From: an uncultured Clostridia bacterium
GTDB lineage: Bacteria; Bacillota; Clostridia; TANB77; CAG-508
DNA length: 38,443 nt
Assembly (NCBI GenBank): GCA_944393565.1
Contig: CALYAM010000003.1
Location: 1 to 38,443 of the forward strand
Reading direction: 5' to 3'
Under the pieces are notes generated by a model that was not told the DNA's origin, did no database searches, and was given only the letters and a program-made list of their open reading frames with translations. This document shows positions 11,475-26,114 of the stretch, one piece after another. Positions within the stretch are counted from its first letter, which is position 1. Each line of letters opens with the position of its first letter. The translations under genes were made by a program, and so were the position numbers.

Positions 11475-11541
11475 TTTCTCTTCCCCCTTTTACATTTTTG
11501 TTATATCTTATGTACTCTTTACATAAAAGGTGTTCCCATTT

Positions 11542-11570
11542 TTTACAAAAGTTAGTTTTAATTTGATAAA
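11542..11570 (+). promoter_or_regulatory. promoter of the 6S-like RNA
   Basis: TTTACA (11542-11547) and GATAAA (11565-11570) are 17 bp apart. A start near 11577 would begin just before the conserved RNA segment. The -35 is close to consensus, the -10 matches 4 of 6. Confidence 0.5.
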
Positions 11571-11576
11571 TACGTA

Positions 11577-11806
11577 AAAGTAAGAAAGGCATTTCGCAGG
11601 GCTAGTCTCTGGAGCAACTGCGAAATACATGTCCTCGCTTTGTGCTCGGACGGCCCAAGGAAGCCTAACCTTGTTGTATACGGAAAAATCGTTAAAAATA
11701 TTGAAATATCAAAGAAAAAGTCGATTTTTCCTATACAATAAAAAGTACAAGATAAAGGAGAGAGCCTTTGCAATTTTAGACTCTCTCCTTTATCTTGTAT
11801 TTTTTG
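11577..11806 (+). ncRNA. ssrS: probable 6S RNA
   Basis: The segment 11591-11671 resembles 6S RNA, which binds sigma-A polymerase. TTCGCAGGGCTAGTCTCTGG parallels the E. coli 6S stretch TTCGCAAGCGGGCCAGTCCC, and TGCTCGGACGG followed by GGAAGCCTAACC parallels its CTCGGTCCGTCCGAGAAGCC. ATTTCGCAG / CTGCGAAAT form a local stem, and TTGTATA-GGAAAAATCG pairs with CGATTTTTCC-TATACAA at 11673-11737. The unit is preceded by a promoter and ends in a strong terminator. The mature ends are not known; the mature RNA may end before the terminator. The alignment was made from memory, so a covariance-model search would settle it. No credible protein is encoded here. Confidence 0.7.
11746..11806 (+). terminator. 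rho-independent terminator of the 6S-like RNA
   Basis: A perfect 19-bp stem: 11746-11764 (TACAAGATAAAGGAGAGAG) against 11781-11799, with a 16-nt loop, followed by a six-T run. The stem also works leftward, so it may be bidirectional. Confidence 0.85.
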
Positions 11807-11902
11807 TTGCAGAATGTATTTTTATTTAATAGCTCTACGTCCATACTTTTTTATTTTAGTATAAGGTAACTAATTTATGTGTTTTATTCCAGTACATATA
11901 AA

Positions 11903-12253
11903 CTATATGTTGGTTTTAGAATTATAATATTTTTCCAGTCCCTCCCTTATAGCTATATTTAACAGTTTATATACTGATATGTCATATTTTTCTCTTAATG
12001 TTTCCAGTTTTTTGTACATTGATTCTCTTATTATTATTGATCTTACTATGTTTATTTCCGTTTTTTCTTTTTTATAAATTATTATTTTATCTGGCAATTC
12101 TAAACTGTCTATGCATGCATCTATAATTTTATTTACAGAAGCATCTAGTTCATTAGCTGAAATATTTTTTAGCTTTTCATATAAACTCCCTTCTATTTCA
12201 ACTGACTTTTTACACCATTTCTCTTTTGCATAAAATCGCTCATACCATTCCAT
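11903..12253 (-). CDS. small protein with two ribbon-helix-helix-like segments
   Basis: The 116-residue protein has no family name I can give with certainty. Two segments look like ribbon-helix-helix (Arc/CopG-type) DNA-binding units in tandem: KSVEIEGSLYEKLKNISA then DASVNKIIDACIDSLE (about 16-52), and RSIIIRESMYKKLETLRE then ISVYKLLNIAIREGLEKY (about 70-110). In each, a short beta strand precedes two helices. Start ATG at 12253 has AAAGGAG upstream and a TATAAT near 12270 on the minus strand. It is divergent from the DGR operon across a 148-bp gap, so it may repress that operon or itself. No membrane or enzyme motifs are present. Confidence 0.7.
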   Translation of the reverse strand: MEWYERFYAKEKWCKKSVEIEGSLYEKLKNISANELDASVNKIIDACIDSLELPDKIIIYKKEKTEINIVRSIIIRESMYKKLETLREKYDISVYKLLNIAIREGLEKYYNSKTNI

Positions 12254-12326
12254 TAAATCGTCTCCTTTTGCTCGAATTATATATTATTTCGTACCTCATT
12301 TTAACCATCCTTTTATCTTATTTGGC

Positions 12327-12368
12327 CAACCCTTAGGGGTTGATTTTTGTTTTTTATTGTTTTATAAT
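12327..12368 (+). promoter_or_regulatory. DGR operon promoter overlapped by a palindrome (operator candidate)
   Basis: TTGATT (12340-12345) and TATAAT (12363-12368) are 17 bp apart, with a start near 12375. The hairpin/palindrome CAACCC-TTAG-GGGTTG (12327-12342) overlaps the -35. Followed by T-rich DNA it could also act as a terminator for rightward transcription, but nothing upstream on this strand needs one except leakage from the 6S unit. An operator role is equally possible. Confidence 0.55.
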
Positions 12369-12401
12369 TTTAGTAAATATTAATTTAGGAGGTGATTTGT
12401 T

Positions 12402-12590
12402 GTGAATTCTCTAAGACAAGTACGTCTCAATTTAGGCTATACTCTAAGAGAAGTAGCTGAAAAGTCTAATATCTCTGAAGGTTATTTATGTCATTTAGAA
12501 AACGGTTCAAAATCCAATCCTAGCAAAACCGTGATGGATTCAATTGCCAAAGCTTTAAATACAAAAGCATATCTATTATTTTACTTATAA
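12402..12590 (+). CDS. small XRE-family helix-turn-helix protein
   Basis: A 62-residue Cro/CI-type DNA-binding domain and little else: LRQVRLNLGYTLREVAEKS then ISEGYLCHLENGSKSNPS carries the helix-turn-helix, and TVMDSIAKALNTKAYLLF the last helix. The start is GTG at 12402, set by a full Shine-Dalgarno (AGGAGGTGA) 6 nt upstream. It is the first gene of the DGR operon, 16 bp before the MutS-like gene, and probably controls the operon from the palindromic promoter just upstream. Confidence 0.88.
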   Translation: MNSLRQVRLNLGYTLREVAEKSNISEGYLCHLENGSKSNPSKTVMDSIAKALNTKAYLLFYL

Positions 12591-12606
12591 TGGGAGGAAA
12601 ATACTA

Positions 12607-13011
12607 ATGAGTAAACTTTATAAGAAGTATAAAGAACTTAAATATAAAAATCCAGATTCTGTCATCTTATTTAAAAGTGGAATTTTCTATATAGCTTTAG
12701 AAAATGATGCTATATTTTTGTCTGAAAAATTAGGTTTAAAACTATCTTTTTTTAACAATGAAATATCAAAGTGTGGTTTTCCTGTTTCTCGTTTTTCATT
12801 TTACAGTCACTTATTAAATGAGCTTTCTATACCATATGTTGTTTTTGATTCACAATCGTCACTTTCTCCTTATGATATTAATCAGGCTGAATTAAATAGT
12901 GTTATTTCATATATTCTAAGTCTAAATTTGAATTGTATTACTTATCGTGAATCTTTTGATATACTTCAGAGAATTCAAGAAATGCTAAAAAAAAATTTAC
13001 GCGGAGGGTAA
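12607..13011 (+). CDS. MutS domain I-like DGR accessory protein (MSL type)
   Basis: A 134-residue stand-alone version of the MutS mismatch-recognition domain. YKELKYKNPDSVILFKSGIF aligns with the MutS start (Y..LK...P..LLF..GDFYE), DAIFLSEKLGLKLSF with the DA...S..L...L segment, CGFPVSRFSFYSHLLNE with the AG(I/V)PYHA...YL.KL segment, and IPYVVFD with the strand ending in ICE. MutS domains II-V, including the ATPase, are missing. In the Phe-X-Glu motif that probes mismatches, Phe is kept but the sequence is GIFYIAL, so Glu is Ile. As I recall, MutS-like (MSL) open reading frames have been reported with DGRs. RBS GGGAGG. The stop is 6 bp before avd. It may act on mismatched cDNA/target duplexes, which is inference. 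Confidence 0.75.
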   Translation: MSKLYKKYKELKYKNPDSVILFKSGIFYIALENDAIFLSEKLGLKLSFFNNEISKCGFPVSRFSFYSHLLNELSIPYVVFDSQSSLSPYDINQAELNSVISYILSLNLNCITYRESFDILQRIQEMLKKNLRGG

Positions 13012-13019
13012 AATTTAAA

Positions 13020-13382
13020 ATGTCAGGAAATAAACAGACTAATCTTATTATTTACCAAAAATATCTTGAAATGATTTACTATACAAATGATTTAGTTAGG
13101 AAGTATCCAAAATCGGAGACTTTTGCTTTGGTGGAAGAAATTAAACATACCATGTACTCAGGTTTACGTCTTCTAATATATGGTTTAAAGCTTTACAATA
13201 TAAAAGAGAAATTAAAGTATTTGAATGAGCTTGATATAAATTTAAACTTAATGAAAGTGCATATACGCCTTTCTTATAAGTATCACCATATTAGTATGCA
13301 AAATTATACAACGTGGAGTAATAAAATCACTGAAATTTGTAATTTATTAGGAGGTCTTATAAACTCATGCCTAAAAAGATAA
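13020..13382 (+). CDS. avd: DGR accessory variability determinant Avd
   Basis: Avd is the small four-helix-bundle partner (bAvd fold) that binds DGR reverse transcriptase and template RNA and is needed for mutagenic homing. The 120-residue protein is almost all helix with typical spacing: TNLIIYQKYLEMIYYTNDLVRKYPKSE (helix 1), ALVEEIKHTMYSGLRLLIYGLK (helix 2), IKEKLKYLNELDINLNLMKVHIRLSY (helix 3) and YTTWSNKITEICNLLGGLINS (helix 4), matching the Avd pattern. It lies directly upstream of the RT and overlaps its start by 16 bp, the usual avd-RT order. Confidence 0.9.
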   Translation: MSGNKQTNLIIYQKYLEMIYYTNDLVRKYPKSETFALVEEIKHTMYSGLRLLIYGLKLYNIKEKLKYLNELDINLNLMKVHIRLSYKYHHISMQNYTTWSNKITEICNLLGGLINSCLKR

Positions 13383-14401
13383 AAAATTGCTTCGACAAAA
13401 ATATTAATTTTTCGAAATTTTTGTCAGCTTTTTACAGAGCCAAAAAGCAAAAGACATATAAAAATGAAGTAATACAATTTGAAATGAATTTAGAAAATAA
13501 TTTGATAAATCTTATGAATAAAATTAAAAACAACGTATATAAATTAGGAAACTATTATCAATTTAAGATATATGAGCCAAAAGAAAGAATAATCCAAGCT
13601 TTGCCGTTTGTTGATCGTATTGTGCATCAATGGTATGTAGAAGAATTCATTAAGCCATATATTGTTCCCAAATTTATTTTTGCTTCATATGCATGTTTAA
13701 GCAATAAAGGTACTCATAAAGCTGTTGATGATTTACAAAAGCAAATGAGGATAATGTGGCGAAACACAAAAAATTTCTGGATTTTAAAGTGTGATATAAA
13801 AAAGTTTTTTAATTCTATAAGCCCTAACATTTTGTATTCTATTATGCAAAAATACATAAAAGATAAAAAGCTTTTAAGATTTACAAAACTTCTTATTTTC
13901 TGTAATAGAGGCTCAGCCGAAGTTGGAATTCCTATTGGAAATTATACATCTCAATTTTTTGCCAATATTTATCTTACTGAACTTGATTATTATATTAAAC
14001 GCGATTTAAAAATTCGTTTTTATGTACGTTACATGGATGATTTTATTTTGTTATTAAATACAAAAGAAGAATGTAGAACTATAAAAAAGAAAATTGATGA
14101 TTTTTTAAATAATAAACTTTTATTAGAACTTAATTATAAATCTCGATATTACCCGTTTTCAATGGGTGTTAATTTTTGTGGTTATAGAATCTTTACAACA
14201 CATAGGTTGCTTAGAAATTCATCAAAGAAAAAAATAAAAAATAATGTTAAAAAGTGGAACAAGCTTTGGGCAAAAAATAATCTTTCTTTTCCAGATACCA
14301 TTCAAAGCTTAAATTCATGGCTTGGTCATGCTTCTCATTGTAACTCATATCATTTGCAGCAAAAAGTATTAAGCAAGTGTAATTTTTTGTACAAATTATA
14401 A
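13367..14401 (+). CDS. DGR-type reverse transcriptase
   Basis: RNA-directed DNA polymerase that copies the template repeat with adenine-specific errors. The 344-residue protein has the RT domains in order: PFVDRIVHQWYVEEFI (motif 1-2 region), LKCDIKKFFNSIS (motif 3, first Asp), GIPIGNYTSQFFANIYL (motif 4; the DGR hallmark [I/V/L]GxxxSQ in place of the retroviral QG), YVRYMDDFILL (motif 5, YMDD) and GVNFCGYRIF (motif 6-7). No maturase, endonuclease or integrase domain is present, which argues against a group II intron. Start ATG at 13367 follows AGGAGGTC. The gene is last in its operon and points toward the template repeat, converging with the target gene. Confidence 0.97.
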   Translation: MPKKIKNCFDKNINFSKFLSAFYRAKKQKTYKNEVIQFEMNLENNLINLMNKIKNNVYKLGNYYQFKIYEPKERIIQALPFVDRIVHQWYVEEFIKPYIVPKFIFASYACLSNKGTHKAVDDLQKQMRIMWRNTKNFWILKCDIKKFFNSISPNILYSIMQKYIKDKKLLRFTKLLIFCNRGSAEVGIPIGNYTSQFFANIYLTELDYYIKRDLKIRFYVRYMDDFILLLNTKEECRTIKKKIDDFLNNKLLLELNYKSRYYPFSMGVNFCGYRIFTTHRLLRNSSKKKIKNNVKKWNKLWAKNNLSFPDTIQSLNSWLGHASHCNSYHLQQKVLSKCNFLYKL

Positions 14402-14615
14402 GAGGGTAACTCAAAAAGTGCCCCCTTAATTATATTTTTAAAAATTTTAGTTTCAAGCTTTGGACTTTCACATATGTTACTAGAACAAAACTTTTTTTCA
14501 TGTGTTTATCTCTTATGAGAAAGGAATTAAATTTCTTGAATCCCAAAACTATTCGGAATTTTCCGTAAAAAACTCCCCTCTAAGTCTCTGCTATATTGCA
14601 GATATACTGCATTCA

Positions 14616-14768
14616 AGTACTACACACCGAGCACCGGGCGGAAGCCATAGTTGTTGTTCGTACCGCCGTTTGCGTTGTTGAAAGCAAACACACCTGCGCC
14701 AGAACCGTTATTGAAATTGCCACCACGAAGGAAAAACGGGTTCTCGAGGTAAGGAAAGTTAGCGTAGT
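14616..14768 (-). repeat. DGR template repeat (TR)
   Basis: A 153-bp segment repeated at 14870-15022 with 19 differences, all at positions that are A in TR on the minus (coding) strand. Read in the target frame it encodes 11 Asn and 3 Tyr codons that are all altered in VR. It is GC-rich against flanks of ~25-30% GC. It is 101 bp past VR and 214 bp past the RT stop; the gap 14402-14615 holds no gene, only short hairpins such as TGCAG-ATATA-CTGCA near 14598. TR and VR point the same way (minus), opposite to the RT. Confidence 0.95.
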
Positions 14769-14782
14769 ACAATTTAATCCCT

Positions 14783-14811
14783 ATTATATATAAAAATTTT
14801 TCCCGTATTTT
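14783..14811 (-). promoter_or_regulatory. weak candidate promoter for TR RNA
   Basis: On the minus strand a perfect TATAAT (14783-14788) lies 15 bp before the TR boundary, so a start would fall near the first TR base. The -35 position holds only AAAATA, so this is weak. Read-through from the target gene is the alternative source of TR RNA. Confidence 0.3.
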
Positions 14812-14869
14812 TATTTTTATGCTTTTTTTATTAACTGCCGAAAAAAGACAAGCAGATTTTCAGTGTTAT

Positions 14870-15022
14870 AGTACTACACACCGAGCACCGGGCGGAAGCC
14901 ACAGCCGCTGCCCGTACCGCCGCCCGCGTCGTAGAAAGCAAACACACCTGCGCCAGAACCGTAAAAGAAATAGCCACCACGAAGGAAAAACGGGTCCTCG
15001 AGGCAAGGAAAGTAAGCGCAGT
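14870..15022 (-). repeat. DGR variable repeat (VR) at the 3' end of the target gene
   Basis: VR covers the last ~49 codons of the target gene and its stop (14874-14876). The 29 bp at its 3' (stop-side) end are identical to TR and very GC-rich, in the place of the initiation-of-mutagenic-homing (IMH) sequence. Substitutions versus TR, in the coding sense, are 13 A-to-G and 6 A-to-T; none is at C, G or T. Resulting changes include Asn to Tyr, Asp, Gly, Ser and Phe, and Tyr to Cys. Confidence 0.95.
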
Positions 15023-16523
15023 CATAATTCCATGATAACCCCCATGTTATTCCTGCATCATTTCGGCTAGTCTCCCATATTGCATCTCCATATTTGTTAC
15101 TATTTGCCTGATAATTTGCTTTCCTATCCGTTTCATTGTCTGCTACTCCTGTTCCTGCATATTCTTGTTTTTCGCCTAGTTCTAAATTCCTAAAATATTC
15201 TACATAGCTCGTTGTTCCATTTGTTAGATAACTTGCCATGTATTCCCATGCCCCTCCTGATAAGTCATATATTCCATATATGTTTCCTGTACTACTTCCT
15301 CTTTGCCCTTCTTCTGTTTGGTATCTATAATATGTTCTTGTATATGGGCTTCCACTTTCACTTCCATCTTCTGCATAATTTTGATATGTTATACTTATTG
15401 TCTCTGAATTGCTTTTATCTATATCTCCTATTGCTTTACTTGATGCTGATATGGCTTCGTCTCTGCTACTTCCTACCATTCCTGTCATTGTTGTATAATA
15501 TAAATTGTGTTTGTATGTTGCATTTGCATTTTCTACTATGTCTCCCTCATAATATGGGTTTGCCCATACTCCTGAGCTTGCATTCGCATTTGTTTGCTTG
15601 TTTCCATAATCGCTTTGTGTTAAATATGCTATCGCTCCCCATTCACTGTTCTTCATCATATGTGCTTCTATTCCTCTTAGTCCATGTATGTTTCCTTCTG
15701 CTGTCATCCTTTTACATGCTTCATATATTTGCTGAACTGTTATCGCCCTCCAACTTGTTACATTTGGTCTTATTGTTATTTCATCTGTTTCATTATTCGT
15801 CCTTCCATATTTTACTCCTAAATTTGGGTTTTCTTCTGTTGTTGTGTTACTACTTGCTTCAAATTTTCCTACCCAAAATCCTGTTATTTCTTTCCTTCCA
15901 CCGTTTTCTGCTTCTCCTGTAAATGCTGGATGTACTACATATTCTTCTCCATTTGTTTGGTTACTCCTTATTGCTTCCCCTCCTTTATACTTATCTTCTA
16001 CTCCATATAGAAATTGTATCTCTATTTCTCCTTCTATTGGCAAGCTTGCCTCTTCTTCTGGATGATATCCTTTTGTTATTTTATATGCATATCTTGGTAT
16101 CCATACATACATCCCTATTATATCTTCTTCTAATATACTACTCCCTGTTCCTGCTGCTTTGTATTCTTCCCTTTTTGCTTCCTTTACTGTTACTGCATTT
16201 GCCCATTTCTTATTTTGGGTATCATATTCATACCAATTCTTATCTTTGTTACTACTATCTGCTTTTTTCCACCCATTTTCATAATATACCGGTATCATTC
16301 CTTCTCCTAGTTTTGGTGGATTTACTCCTTCTGCTTCTGCTTCTAATTTTGCTAGTACTTCTTCTTCCTCCATTACTTTTTCATTCCACTCTCTTGCTGC
16401 TTCTTCTGCTTTTTCTATTAATCCTTCTGCAGTTATTGCTAAACTTATTGCCACTCCTGCTAATATTAATAACACTATTATTGTTATTACTAAGCTTACT
16501 AGCGTTATTCCTGCTTTTCTCAT
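14874..16523 (-). CDS. DGR target: prepilin-like anchored protein with FGE/C-type-lectin-like variable domain
   Basis: A 549-residue surface protein candidate. The N-terminus RKAGITLVSLVITIIVLLIL is a type IV prepilin-like signal: short basic leader, Gly, then a hydrophobic helix that would be cut by prepilin peptidase. A charged helix follows (EKAEEAAREWNEKVMEEEE, residues 37-55), then a linker. The C-terminal ~400 residues resemble the formylglycine-generating-enzyme-like / C-type-lectin fold used by many DGR targets: GFWVGKFEAS, WRAITVQQIYEACKRM, MKNSEWGAIAYLTQS, GIYDLSGGAWEYMASY, ending FRPVLGV. Variable residues lie within the last 50. RBS AAGGAGGAAAG; sigma-A promoter at 16612-16640. 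It is probably a diversified ligand-binding protein; enzymatic activity is not expected. Confidence 0.92.
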   Translation of the reverse strand: MRKAGITLVSLVITIIVLLILAGVAISLAITAEGLIEKAEEAAREWNEKVMEEEEVLAKLEAEAEGVNPPKLGEGMIPVYYENGWKKADSSNKDKNWYEYDTQNKKWANAVTVKEAKREEYKAAGTGSSILEEDIIGMYVWIPRYAYKITKGYHPEEEASLPIEGEIEIQFLYGVEDKYKGGEAIRSNQTNGEEYVVHPAFTGEAENGGRKEITGFWVGKFEASSNTTTEENPNLGVKYGRTNNETDEITIRPNVTSWRAITVQQIYEACKRMTAEGNIHGLRGIEAHMMKNSEWGAIAYLTQSDYGNKQTNANASSGVWANPYYEGDIVENANATYKHNLYYTTMTGMVGSSRDEAISASSKAIGDIDKSNSETISITYQNYAEDGSESGSPYTRTYYRYQTEEGQRGSSTGNIYGIYDLSGGAWEYMASYLTNGTTSYVEYFRNLELGEKQEYAGTGVADNETDRKANYQANSNKYGDAIWETSRNDAGITWGLSWNYDCAYFPCLEDPFFLRGGYFFYGSGAGVFAFYDAGGGTGSGCGFRPVLGV

Positions 16524-16563
16524 CTTTCTGCTTTCCTCCTTTGTTTTTTATTATTTTTCCACA

Positions 16564-16586
16564 CTAAAAGCCTAAATATCTTTTAG
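16564..16586 (-). promoter_or_regulatory. hairpin in the target-gene leader
   Basis: CTAAAAG (16564-16570) and CTTTTAG (16580-16586) are inverted with a 9-nt loop, inside the ~80-nt 5' untranslated leader of the target gene. Function unknown. Confidence 0.35.
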
Positions 16587-16611
16587 TATCTTTAACCATT
16601 ATTTATAATGC

Positions 16612-16649
16612 ATAATATCATATTGAAAAAATGTTGTCAATATTTTTTC
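16612..16649 (-). promoter_or_regulatory. target-gene promoter with operator-like inverted repeat
   Basis: On the minus strand TTGACA (16635-16640) and TATTAT (16612-16617) are 17 bp apart, a near-consensus sigma-A promoter. GAAAAAAT (16625-16632) and ATTTTTTC (16642-16649) form an 8-bp inverted repeat that brackets the -35. A repressor bound there would block polymerase. The divergent XRE gene (16720) is the obvious candidate. Confidence 0.65.
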
Positions 16650-16719
16650 CACATTGTGTCGGTTTAAATCACGTTTATTTTTTTTATTTAATTTGCTATT
16701 TTTTTATTGGTGATTTTAA

Positions 16720-17061
16720 ATGAAAACTAGCAAAAAGCTAAATATTAAAATTGGTCACATTTTGCAAACAACACGTAAATCATTGGGCTATACTCAAGAG
16801 CAATTTGCAGAAAAACTTGATTTGGGACCTAGATTTATTTCTGATATAGAGCGTGATAAAACAAAAGGAAGTATTGATACTTTAGTTAAGTTATGTAATA
16901 TTTACAATGTTACACCTACTTTTATTTTACAAGATTATATAGACTCTGTTGATGTCCCAAGTGATGAAAGTATTATTGGATTTTATCAATTAGATGAGTC
17001 TGATAAAGACATTATTCGTCAATTAATTTCTTATATGAACCAAAAAAAGAGAAAAAAATAA
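16720..17061 (+). CDS. XRE-family transcriptional regulator
   Basis: A 113-residue Cro/CI-type regulator. IGHILQTTRKSLGYTQEQFA and KLDLGPRFISDIERDKTKGS hold the helix-turn-helix (residues ~10-50), followed by LVKLCNIYNVTPTFILQDYI and a C-terminal part ending in a Lys/Arg run. The start follows GGTGAT. The gene is divergent from the DGR target gene with a 196-bp shared control region carrying an inverted repeat over the target promoter, so regulation of the target is likely but inferred. Confidence 0.88.
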   Translation: MKTSKKLNIKIGHILQTTRKSLGYTQEQFAEKLDLGPRFISDIERDKTKGSIDTLVKLCNIYNVTPTFILQDYIDSVDVPSDESIIGFYQLDESDKDIIRQLISYMNQKKRKK

Positions 17062-17066
17062 TACCT

Positions 17067-17094
17067 ATTTTGCATATGTATTTTAATGCAAAAT
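17067..17094. terminator. bidirectional terminator between the XRE and patatin genes
   Basis: ATTTTGCAT (17067-17075) pairs with ATGCAAAAT (17086-17094) around a 10-nt loop, between two convergent genes. Confidence 0.55.
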
Positions 17095-17139
17095 AAGTAA
17101 TTATTAGTTGTGTTTTGTATTTTACACTTTTGTTTAATT

Positions 17140-17985
17140 TTACATATTATAAATTATTTCTTTTATTTCTTTAATATGTTTTATTGTTTCTTCATAGCCA
17201 ATTTTTTCGCAATAATCTATTTTATCAATTGCAAGTAATCTTGTTTTCCCTGTTTGTATATTTATCGTATAATCACCTGTTTTTAAATTTTCATTTGCTA
17301 TTTCATTTGTCATAATATCTAGTGTTCTTAATAAAATACTGTATATACTATTTCCCATATATTTTTCAGCAGGCGGAAATGTAACAGAAATTACTTTGTC
17401 TGCTCCAAGTTGTCTAACTTCTTTAGTTGGCACGTTGTTTAAGATTCCCCCGTCTAGAAATTGCTTGTTATCTGTTTTACATGGCGCATATATTGCTGGG
17501 AACGAAGAACTTGCTCGTACCGCCGTCGCAATAGATATATTATCAATGTATTTTTCTCCTTCTCCTTTTTTGTTTGTAAATATATATTCTTTTCCTGTAA
17601 TTGCATCTACTGCTGGTATTACAATAGGCATACCAATTTCATTTATTTTTTCTATTTTTTTATACTTGCATGCTTCTTTTACTGCTTTTTCAATATTTTC
17701 ACCTGAAAGCAATCCTGAAATTCTAAGTCCTCTATTTTGTTTTATTGAAGCAATAAAGTATCGGGGATCTGCTTCTATTACTAGTTTCGAAAAATATGTA
17801 AAAAGCTCATGCATTTCTTCTGCATTATAGCCCATAGCGTATAGTGTTGCTACTATACTTCCTGATGATGTTCCTCCAATACAATATGGCTTAATTTTAT
17901 TTTCTTCTAACGCTCTGATAACACCTATATGTGCCGCACCTTTTACTCCTCCTCCAGATAGCGCAAGTCCGAGTCTCACTTTCAT
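17140..17985 (-). CDS. patatin-like phospholipase family protein
   Basis: Predicted Ser-Asp dyad lipid acyl hydrolase. The N-terminus LGLALSGGGVKGAAHIGVI is the patatin oxyanion/Gly-rich loop, GGTSSGSIVATLYAMG (about 38-53) holds the nucleophile Ser in GxSxG, and DGGILNNVP near residue 175 holds the catalytic Asp. The length of ~281 residues fits the bacterial RssA/YchK type. No signal peptide is seen. The start is either ATG at 17985 or GTG at 17979; the latter has the better-spaced AAAGG. It is last in a leftward topB-cdd-patatin group, 22 bp after cdd. Confidence 0.92.
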   Translation of the reverse strand: MKVRLGLALSGGGVKGAAHIGVIRALEENKIKPYCIGGTSSGSIVATLYAMGYNAEEMHELFTYFSKLVIEADPRYFIASIKQNRGLRISGLLSGENIEKAVKEACKYKKIEKINEIGMPIVIPAVDAITGKEYIFTNKKGEGEKYIDNISIATAVRASSSFPAIYAPCKTDNKQFLDGGILNNVPTKEVRQLGADKVISVTFPPAEKYMGNSIYSILLRTLDIMTNEIANENLKTGDYTINIQTGKTRLLAIDKIDYCEKIGYEETIKHIKEIKEIIYNM

Positions 17986-24095: not shown

Positions 24096-26114
24096 TCAAA
24101 AGTTTCCAAAGTTAGTAATTTTACATATTACTTGCTTTATTTGTAATAGGTCTGATGGTGTTATTCCACCACTAAAATTTACATCTCCAGCTTGCTTGTA
24201 TTCTTCTTCAAGATTTTCGATATTTACAAGATCCCTTTTTATTTTTAATAAATCTGTAGCTGTTATGTCTCCATCTCCATTGACATCTCCTACTACAACT
24301 ATTTTGTATGAATTATTTGTCTGCAATAATTTAAGTTCCATACCAGTTCCCACTATATCATTCTCTTGCATTTCATTACCATATATATCATATACTTTTA
24401 ATGTATCTTCAGATGTAAAATTGTTTAGAAAATTCATTACATTTGTTCCTGGTAACACTTTTTTTATTTGTTTCTTGTTTTGTTCTATCTCATATTGTTC
24501 GGTTTTTATTAATGTTTTTTCTATATATTCATCAACTGTAAATGCTTTAATACATGCATTTACATTGCTTCTTCCATTCAACTGAAGATTAATTAGGTCT
24601 TCCCACTGGTTTCCATCAAATGATCCATAGCTTTCTCCTGAATTACTTTTCGCTGTTTCCCACATTGTATTTTCAATTCTTGATTCTACCGGTGCAGATA
24701 CTCCCTCACTGTTGCCTATATATTTAATGCAAACTACAAATTCTCTTCCTGTAATTTTCACTGGATTGTCTAGTGTCACTGTAATATAATTAGAATTTGT
24801 TTTTCCTATTGATTTTACTTTTACTAAGTCATTTGTATTTAGTACACTATTATTGGCATTTATATAAATTTCATACCCTTCATTATATGTATTATAAAAT
24901 GAAACTTCTGTTAAGTAACTTATCTCATTTTTATTTTTGTATACATTAGCAAGCCACATCTCTTGCTTTTCATCTGTATATATACTATCATTTGCTCCCA
25001 AAGGGTCATATTGGTATATATCATCGTATTTTATGTCGTCTAATTGTATTATTCCAGACATGTATGTTTCAATTAAATAATCATCATACGATACATATAA
25101 ATAGCCATTGTCAAATACAGGCTGTACTCCGTCTTCTGTTTCAACTTGTGTTCCATAGGAATTTTGGACAATCCAAGCTCCAGTTGATTTTGGTCTATGT
25201 TCCTCATTAAAGTTGTATATAGAATAATCATCATCCCATCCTACTATTGCTACTTGATGATTTGCTTCTATATTCTCATTATCACAATAATAAGCTTTTG
25301 AATTTAAAAAATTTACTTGATTGCTAAAAAATTCTTTGTGTTCTGCATTTATAACTGCCAATACGCTTCCATATTGCATAATGTGTTCTTTAACATTATT
25401 TCTAAATTCTATTATCTGGTCTTTAGTATATTCTATATATTCACCTGAGGTCTGACCATTTGAATATATAATTTCTCCATTTTTTGTTTCTTTATAAATA
25501 TTTGGAAAAGAAATAAATTCTTTGAGGTGAGCCACAGTCTCTTTCCCTTCGATTTCTGATAAATATATTTTTTTACTATTATTTTCAAATGGCATGTCCT
25601 CTTCTATAACTGGGCCTCTTCCACTTGTTAAATATGCATATGCAATATTAAAATTTCCTCCTGCATCTATTTCTCTATTATGTCCTTGTTCATTAATCCC
25701 ATCTATAAATGTTTTTGCAGTAGAATATTCAATATGCCTAGTTGAATATTCTACATTTGTTGACTTTACCTTAGCCATGTAGCTTTCTAGTTGTGTAGTA
25801 GTTGCCATTGCCCAGCATTGGTTGGTATCCATTTGGTTTTTTACCTTTAGATTTATTGTGTCTAATAAGTTGTATTTTGAGTTTATACTCAAAAGTCTTA
25901 TATTTCTTTTTGCCAAATTATTGTTTGTATTGATTTCTTTTACATACATAGCTGGAGGAATAGTTTTAGCCTTTTCTTCTTCAGATAAACCTAACCATTG
26001 TATATATTTATCACTATATTTGCTTGTCTCAACATTAAAATTAGATGCTATAACTTGATTTGTAGTATTTAGCAAGCAATAAAGCATTAATGTACATATA
26101 ATAATTTTTTTCAT
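24096..26114 (-). CDS. secreted papain-like (C1A) cysteine protease with C-terminal dockerin
   Basis: A 672-residue exported enzyme. It has a signal peptide (KKIIICTLMLYCLLNTTNQVIA) and a C1 peptidase domain from ~90 with the active-site segment NQMDTNQCWAMATTTQLESY (oxyanion Gln and nucleophile Cys), His in ANHQVAIVGWDDDY (~290) and Asn in WIVQNSYG. A beta-rich domain follows (~390-520). The C-terminus is a type I dockerin: two Ca-binding repeats, GDVNGDGDITATDLLKIKRDL and GDVNFSGGITPSDLLQIKQV. It is likely held on the cell by the cohesin protein encoded next. Start ATG at 26114 follows GAGGAG. Confidence 0.93.
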   Translation of the reverse strand: MKKIIICTLMLYCLLNTTNQVIASNFNVETSKYSDKYIQWLGLSEEEKAKTIPPAMYVKEINTNNNLAKRNIRLLSINSKYNLLDTINLKVKNQMDTNQCWAMATTTQLESYMAKVKSTNVEYSTRHIEYSTAKTFIDGINEQGHNREIDAGGNFNIAYAYLTSGRGPVIEEDMPFENNSKKIYLSEIEGKETVAHLKEFISFPNIYKETKNGEIIYSNGQTSGEYIEYTKDQIIEFRNNVKEHIMQYGSVLAVINAEHKEFFSNQVNFLNSKAYYCDNENIEANHQVAIVGWDDDYSIYNFNEEHRPKSTGAWIVQNSYGTQVETEDGVQPVFDNGYLYVSYDDYLIETYMSGIIQLDDIKYDDIYQYDPLGANDSIYTDEKQEMWLANVYKNKNEISYLTEVSFYNTYNEGYEIYINANNSVLNTNDLVKVKSIGKTNSNYITVTLDNPVKITGREFVVCIKYIGNSEGVSAPVESRIENTMWETAKSNSGESYGSFDGNQWEDLINLQLNGRSNVNACIKAFTVDEYIEKTLIKTEQYEIEQNKKQIKKVLPGTNVMNFLNNFTSEDTLKVYDIYGNEMQENDIVGTGMELKLLQTNNSYKIVVVGDVNGDGDITATDLLKIKRDLVNIENLEEEYKQAGDVNFSGGITPSDLLQIKQVICKITNFGNF

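Follow-up and report, generated by a model that had tools for sequence, protein, structure and literature searches.

The 38,443-nucleotide stretch of DNA analysed here (the window), from an uncultured Clostridia bacterium, very probably carries a chromosomal, cell-encoded diversity-generating retroelement (DGR) of the MSL-Avd type, which would produce a diversified, pilin-anchored surface protein from a template that an RNA helix is proposed to loop. DGRs are well known as a kind of element. The identification as a DGR, already made in an earlier note on this DNA, is borne out by mismatches confined to adenines, a reverse transcriptase (RT) of the DGR clade, an Avd protein, a structured RNA behind the template repeat (TR) and a CLec target that ends in the variable repeat (VR). 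On sequence grounds, the element is assigned to a widespread DGR family of Clostridia and Bacilli; the relatives of the source genome are MAGs, from the gut and elsewhere, that carry the labels Clostridia, Clostridium or Bacilli. The features are collected in Table 1.

Table 1. Features of the DGR locus, in window coordinates.
Feature	Position	Strand	Basis or remark
DGR-bearing segment missing from a congener	11533..17149		Patatin-MurA spacing in genome G004
Promoter-like site 5' of XRE-MSL-Avd-RT operon	12340..12368	plus	TTGATT-17-TATAAT, 10/12; consensus match only
XRE-type HTH gene, small	12402-12590	plus	Pfam HTH_3 1.1e-12; probably no conserved DGR part
MSL accessory protein consisting of MutS domain I alone	12607-13011	plus	Pfam MutS_I 5.9e-11
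Avd accessory protein	13020-13382	plus	bAvd 1.7e-19, over Pfam cut-off; PHROG 'Avd protein of DGR' 3.6e-23
DGR reverse transcriptase	13367-14401	plus	RVT_1 4e-16; PHROG_1423 4.9e-112
Hairpin between convergent RT gene and TR RNA	14401..14428		Fold; possibly a shared terminator
Structured 3' tail of TR RNA, Rfam RT-14 (RF02921)	14455-14596	minus	70.1 bits, cut-off 48.1
TR-closing helix, 3' strand (AUUUAAUUCCU)	14522..14532	minus	Inside RT-14 tail
TR	14617-14769	minus	153 nt; 19/19 VR mismatches at TR adenines
TR-closing helix, 5' strand (AGGGAUUAAAU)	14772..14782	minus	Directly 5' of TR
VR, 3' end of target gene	14871-15023	minus	153 nt; in frame with ORF 14874-16523
Target gene, prepilin-like N-terminus and FGE-type CLec C-terminus	14874-16523	minus	Profile, structure alignment; 3' end is VR
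Promoter-like site 5' of target gene	16612..16640	minus	TTGACA-17-TATTAT with TG, 11/12; consensus match

Repeats, genes and layout

The 153-bp template and the target gene with a matching repeat, both claimed previously, were found where the earlier note had placed them, and comparison of the pair places every mismatch at a TR adenine. The two repeats differ at 19 of 153 positions (13 A>G and 6 A>T). As the TR contains 32 adenines, the chance of all mismatches falling on adenines is p ∼ 4e-16. None of the 121 non-adenine positions is mismatched, and the pair has therefore not drifted since the last homing event. Searched against its own genome, the TR matches itself at 100% and the VR at 88%. 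The same bias was seen when 106 related loci were pooled: TR adenines account for 1448 of the 1531 mismatches, a figure that is biased upwards because strand and template were chosen as the best of four for each pair and a 75% filter was applied.

The VR is read in frame and without stops. Of the 21 TR codons that contain an adenine, 15 are changed in the VR, and since 11 TR codons are AAY only the stop codon itself can turn into a stop; the coding capacity of the TR amounts to about 10^17.8 protein variants. The last 31 nt of the two repeats are identical. A 7-bp stem is possible behind the VR of the window, and no consistent IMH stem-loop was found at this place among 14 loci; one resembling that of BPP-1 is not evident in the window or in most of its relatives. 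Two paralogues of the target elsewhere in the genome, on contigs C5 and C13, were considered as remote VRs of this TR and rejected, as their mismatches extend beyond adenines (C5, 16/37).

The MutS-like, Avd and DGR-type RT genes were likewise located as described, with the profiles MutS_I, bAvd, RVT_1 and PHROG_1423 in agreement. The RT retains both YMDD and an IGNxTSQ-type motif, and relatives of it are present in 98 of 192 related genomes. The comparison of RT profiles suggested earlier places it in the DGR clade: its best solved relative is the RT of the Bordetella phage BPP-1 DGR (PDB 8ub7; 9.9e-49), far ahead of the best group II RT (3.2e-15). Against the NCBIfam Avd model, the Avd protein scores 71 bits, under the cut-off of 80 of that model. 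The order MSL-Avd-RT is conserved among the loci of relatives. For the XRE gene the earlier claim holds in part: a plus-strand gene with an HTH_3 match is present, but its status as a DGR part does not stand, because tblastn found no match to it at the DGR loci of relatives, so that it is probably a neighbour rather than a component. In addition, no clear HTH gene was seen 5' of MSL in 41 loci by a crude inspection of ORFs. The description of all parts as intact is upheld for the reading frames, which are all open, and does not extend to present-day homing, for which the locus is a candidate.

MSL was already known as a DGR accessory (PMC10053308, citing earlier work). As in the DGRs named there, the MutS domain I protein of the window adjoins Avd-RT, and no difference from them was found. 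Measured here were the spread of MSL in Clostridia and Bacilli and a change in its wedge motif: the wedge Phe of MutS is kept in 95 of 96 alignment rows, and the Glu of F-x-E is replaced by Ile, Leu or Val. This F-x-(I/L/V) change would perhaps mean DNA binding without mismatch choice.

The earlier note is to be corrected on the arrangement of the locus, in that the TR RNA and the target run against the direction of the RT operon, with the RT-14 tail directly behind the TR. This tail matches the Rfam model along its full length. RT-14 was found in 113 of 292 genomes of the family and in 0 of 14 control genomes, and most related loci, as well as five phage DGRs, have it behind the TR. Beside one related DGR, a match to another Rfam family, ssNA-helicase RNA (RF03070, 43.1 bits), was observed at L015:765-814. 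Variants of DGR layout were already known. In the present set, 24 of 45 cellular TRs lie downstream of the RT on the opposite strand, and all 62 phage TRs lie upstream on the same strand; on the RT tree the opposite layout requires two changes, and the nearest RT to that of the window (L088) has the other layout.

Several relatives carry tandem cassettes of TR plus RT-14, with six copies at L084:5368-7365, five at L085:8830-10164, three at L086:10-863 and two at L087:276-829, spaced by ∼300-400 bp; the TR bodies are not the same from copy to copy. The idea that these copies vary at adenines alone was ruled out, since other positions differ too.

Target protein and genomic setting

The target is predicted from profiles and a structural model to be an FGE-type CLec variable protein of a DGR, closest to TaqVP of Thermus aquaticus (PDB 5VF4; PMC6328139), with which it shares the fold and a VR at the C-terminus. 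A profile of 17 target sequences has TaqVP as its best PDB match (6.6e-4), and alignment of the AlphaFold model with TaqVP using VIA-align gave Z = 11.7 over 247 residues with an r.m.s.d. of 4.9, followed by PvdO and FGE. The mean pLDDT of the model is 58.7, and a Foldseek search of this low-confidence model against the PDB returned nothing at E ≤ 0.001. Unlike TaqVP, the target has an N-terminal prepilin-like segment, and its VR region is of low confidence in the model. The prepilin-like motif, GITLVSLVITIIVLLILAGV, was recognized by eye; the N_methyl profile does not match the window protein itself. Among the 17 homologues, FGE-sulfatase and N_methyl each match seven, these being weak matches (best N_methyl, 0.0015). 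Pilin-linked DGR targets have been mentioned before (PMC6642488).

Over ∼600 bp, the body of the target gene (window:15690-16290) is 100% identical to the C5 paralogue (L036), with divergence on both sides of this segment and different VRs; either a recent event of gene conversion or an effect of the assembly would account for the identity. Genes sharing the first 143 residues of the target, namely the prepilin-like part and the next domain, and having no VR end occur at C6, C14, C1 and C3:62506 of the same genome.

The source genome comprises 1.19 Mb in 29 contigs. The DGR is flanked by genes for MurA, an FtsQ-type POTRA protein, DUF881, an FtsA-like protein, topoisomerase, patatin, cytidine deaminase and LeuRS. 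Between MurA and the DGR lies an inverted repeat of 32 nt (window:11736-11809; 91% complementary, 10-nt loop). Farther along, a cohesin-domain protein (window:23068-24018) adjoins a protease of the papain type that carries lectin-like and dockerin domains (24096-26114), a pair of cellulosome-like parts in a 1.2-Mb genome. In the congener G004, the homologues of patatin and MurA are separated by ∼190 bp, compared with 5.6 kb in the window. Because this gap keeps a stretch that resembles the end of the window gene 11903-12253 (a translation match made by eye), loss of the DGR segment in the congener is suggested. The source genome also contains a second DGR RT (C8; L038:8782-9742), which is truncated at the C-terminus and has RT-14 directly behind it with the TR absent, and which is judged to be a relic.

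Many DGRs are phage-borne and the RT has phage relatives (best 39% identity), but a prophage origin is very improbable given the housekeeping flanks, the absence of any phage family among the genes tested and the position of the nearest RTs in bacterial genomes. It is scarcely conceivable that the gene encodes a defence, retron or group II intron RT that merely adjoins an unrelated gene duplication: group II and DRT profiles do match, at lower scores, whereas the lead of the BPP-1 RT, the restriction of mismatches to adenines, Avd, RT-14 and the fold of the target all argue for a DGR. A weightier alternative, although still an unlikely one, is that the DGR is intact on paper and no longer active, the VR being a record of past homing only. 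The decayed C8 element and the congener that keeps only an apparent piece of a neighbouring gene agree with such an end; the open frames, the uninterrupted VR and the undrifted non-adenine positions speak against it.

A proposed helix closing the template repeat

In each of 14 loci, the TR is immediately preceded on its 5' side by a conserved leader resembling AGGGAUUAAACUG, which is complementary to a tail segment that the RT-14 model has as conserved yet unpaired. The model begins behind the TR and contains neither the leader nor a long-range helix. Pairing of the two strands would give an 11-bp helix that spans the whole TR. In an alignment of 42 loci (24 distinct rows), 99.6% of cells hold standard pairs and nine of the 11 pairs have changes on both sides. 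Covariation is 0.528, compared with 0.208 in shuffles, none of 500 of which scored as high, and versions with the helix slid along are at most 65% paired. As a caution on this alignment, GGG and UUCC motifs served as anchors for leader and tail, three rows were placed manually and ties were broken by pairing; a few of the 42 loci are present twice, from different searches. Covariation alone was taken as evidence for the helix. Single-sequence folds were set aside: the MFE fold pairs the leader region with the tail, and the folding z-scores are not significant.

Beyond this alignment, 40 distinct phage DGR RNAs were compared, and for 17 of their leaders the best pairing partner is their own tail (∼1 expected). 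Strong helices number 22, of which 15 begin between +57 and +61 in the tail. Shuffle tests were passed at 3/60 or better by 20 of 23 Clostridia TRs, 40 of 60 phage TRs and seven of 19 other cellular TRs. The helix fails in about one third of phage loci and in most Bacilli loci, in part owing to mis-set TR ends. It thus appears to be common to most of the relatives tested and to many phage DGRs. A stricter expectation, that each leader within the tandem arrays pairs solely with its own tail, was unsupported once G.U pairs were allowed.

The complementarity might instead reflect a signal at the level of DNA or transcription, such as a promoter or terminator, with no RNA helix, and the window leader does come after a TATAAT-like stretch. 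This stretch is not kept in relatives, and the compensatory double changes, together with a tail strand conserved without a partner in RT-14, make such a signal an improbable explanation. The leader-tail helix is put forward here as new, although it may already be known from the BPP-1 RNP. A possible, as yet tentative, generalization is that DGR template RNAs of phages and cells alike are closed by a covarying leader-tail helix, an undescribed core element that would fix the ends of the template and the start and stop of the enzyme, with its tail site ∼57-75 nt or more behind the TR and often a G.U at the fourth pair.

Proposed mechanism and implications

The DGR of phage BPP-1 resembles that of the window in its RT (34% identity), Avd, a TR/VR pair with adenine mutagenesis, a structured RNA behind the TR (Rfam Phage_DGR in BPP-1) and an FGE-type CLec variable domain. 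The window DGR differs in being cellular, in its extra MSL gene and in that no IMH stem-loop was established. Furthermore, the TR RNA lies opposite to the RT instead of between avd and brt, and the target has a prepilin-like N-terminus, whereas that of BPP-1 is a tail tip. A leader/spacer pairing in BPP-1, AGGGCAGG (-19) with UCUGUCCU (+62), is possible at a similar place; on its own it does not exceed chance (score 12, shuffle median 13) and was rejected as support for the helix, the resemblance being one of position only.

On the BPP-1 model, an RNA of TR plus tail would be transcribed from the minus strand, RT-Avd would bind the tail and prime cDNA at the 3' end of the TR, and the RT would misincorporate opposite TR adenines, after which the cDNA would replace the VR. 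To this scheme we add that the leader-tail helix would close the TR into a loop, probably keeping the template ends and the enzyme together, and that it may define where cDNA synthesis stops. MSL may, as a guess, bind the mismatch-rich cDNA/VR intermediate. The outcome would be a surface protein whose tip could take as many as about 10^18 forms, shown on a pilin-like anchor, the variable tip probably serving in adhesion or ligand binding.

The element adds one further cellular, pilin-like case from uncultured gut Clostridia, and the tandem TR arrays of its relatives raise the question of whether one RT serves many templates. If the closing helix is both general and new, it would offer a simple handle on how a DGR RNA bounds its template and would allow TRs to be found without a VR.
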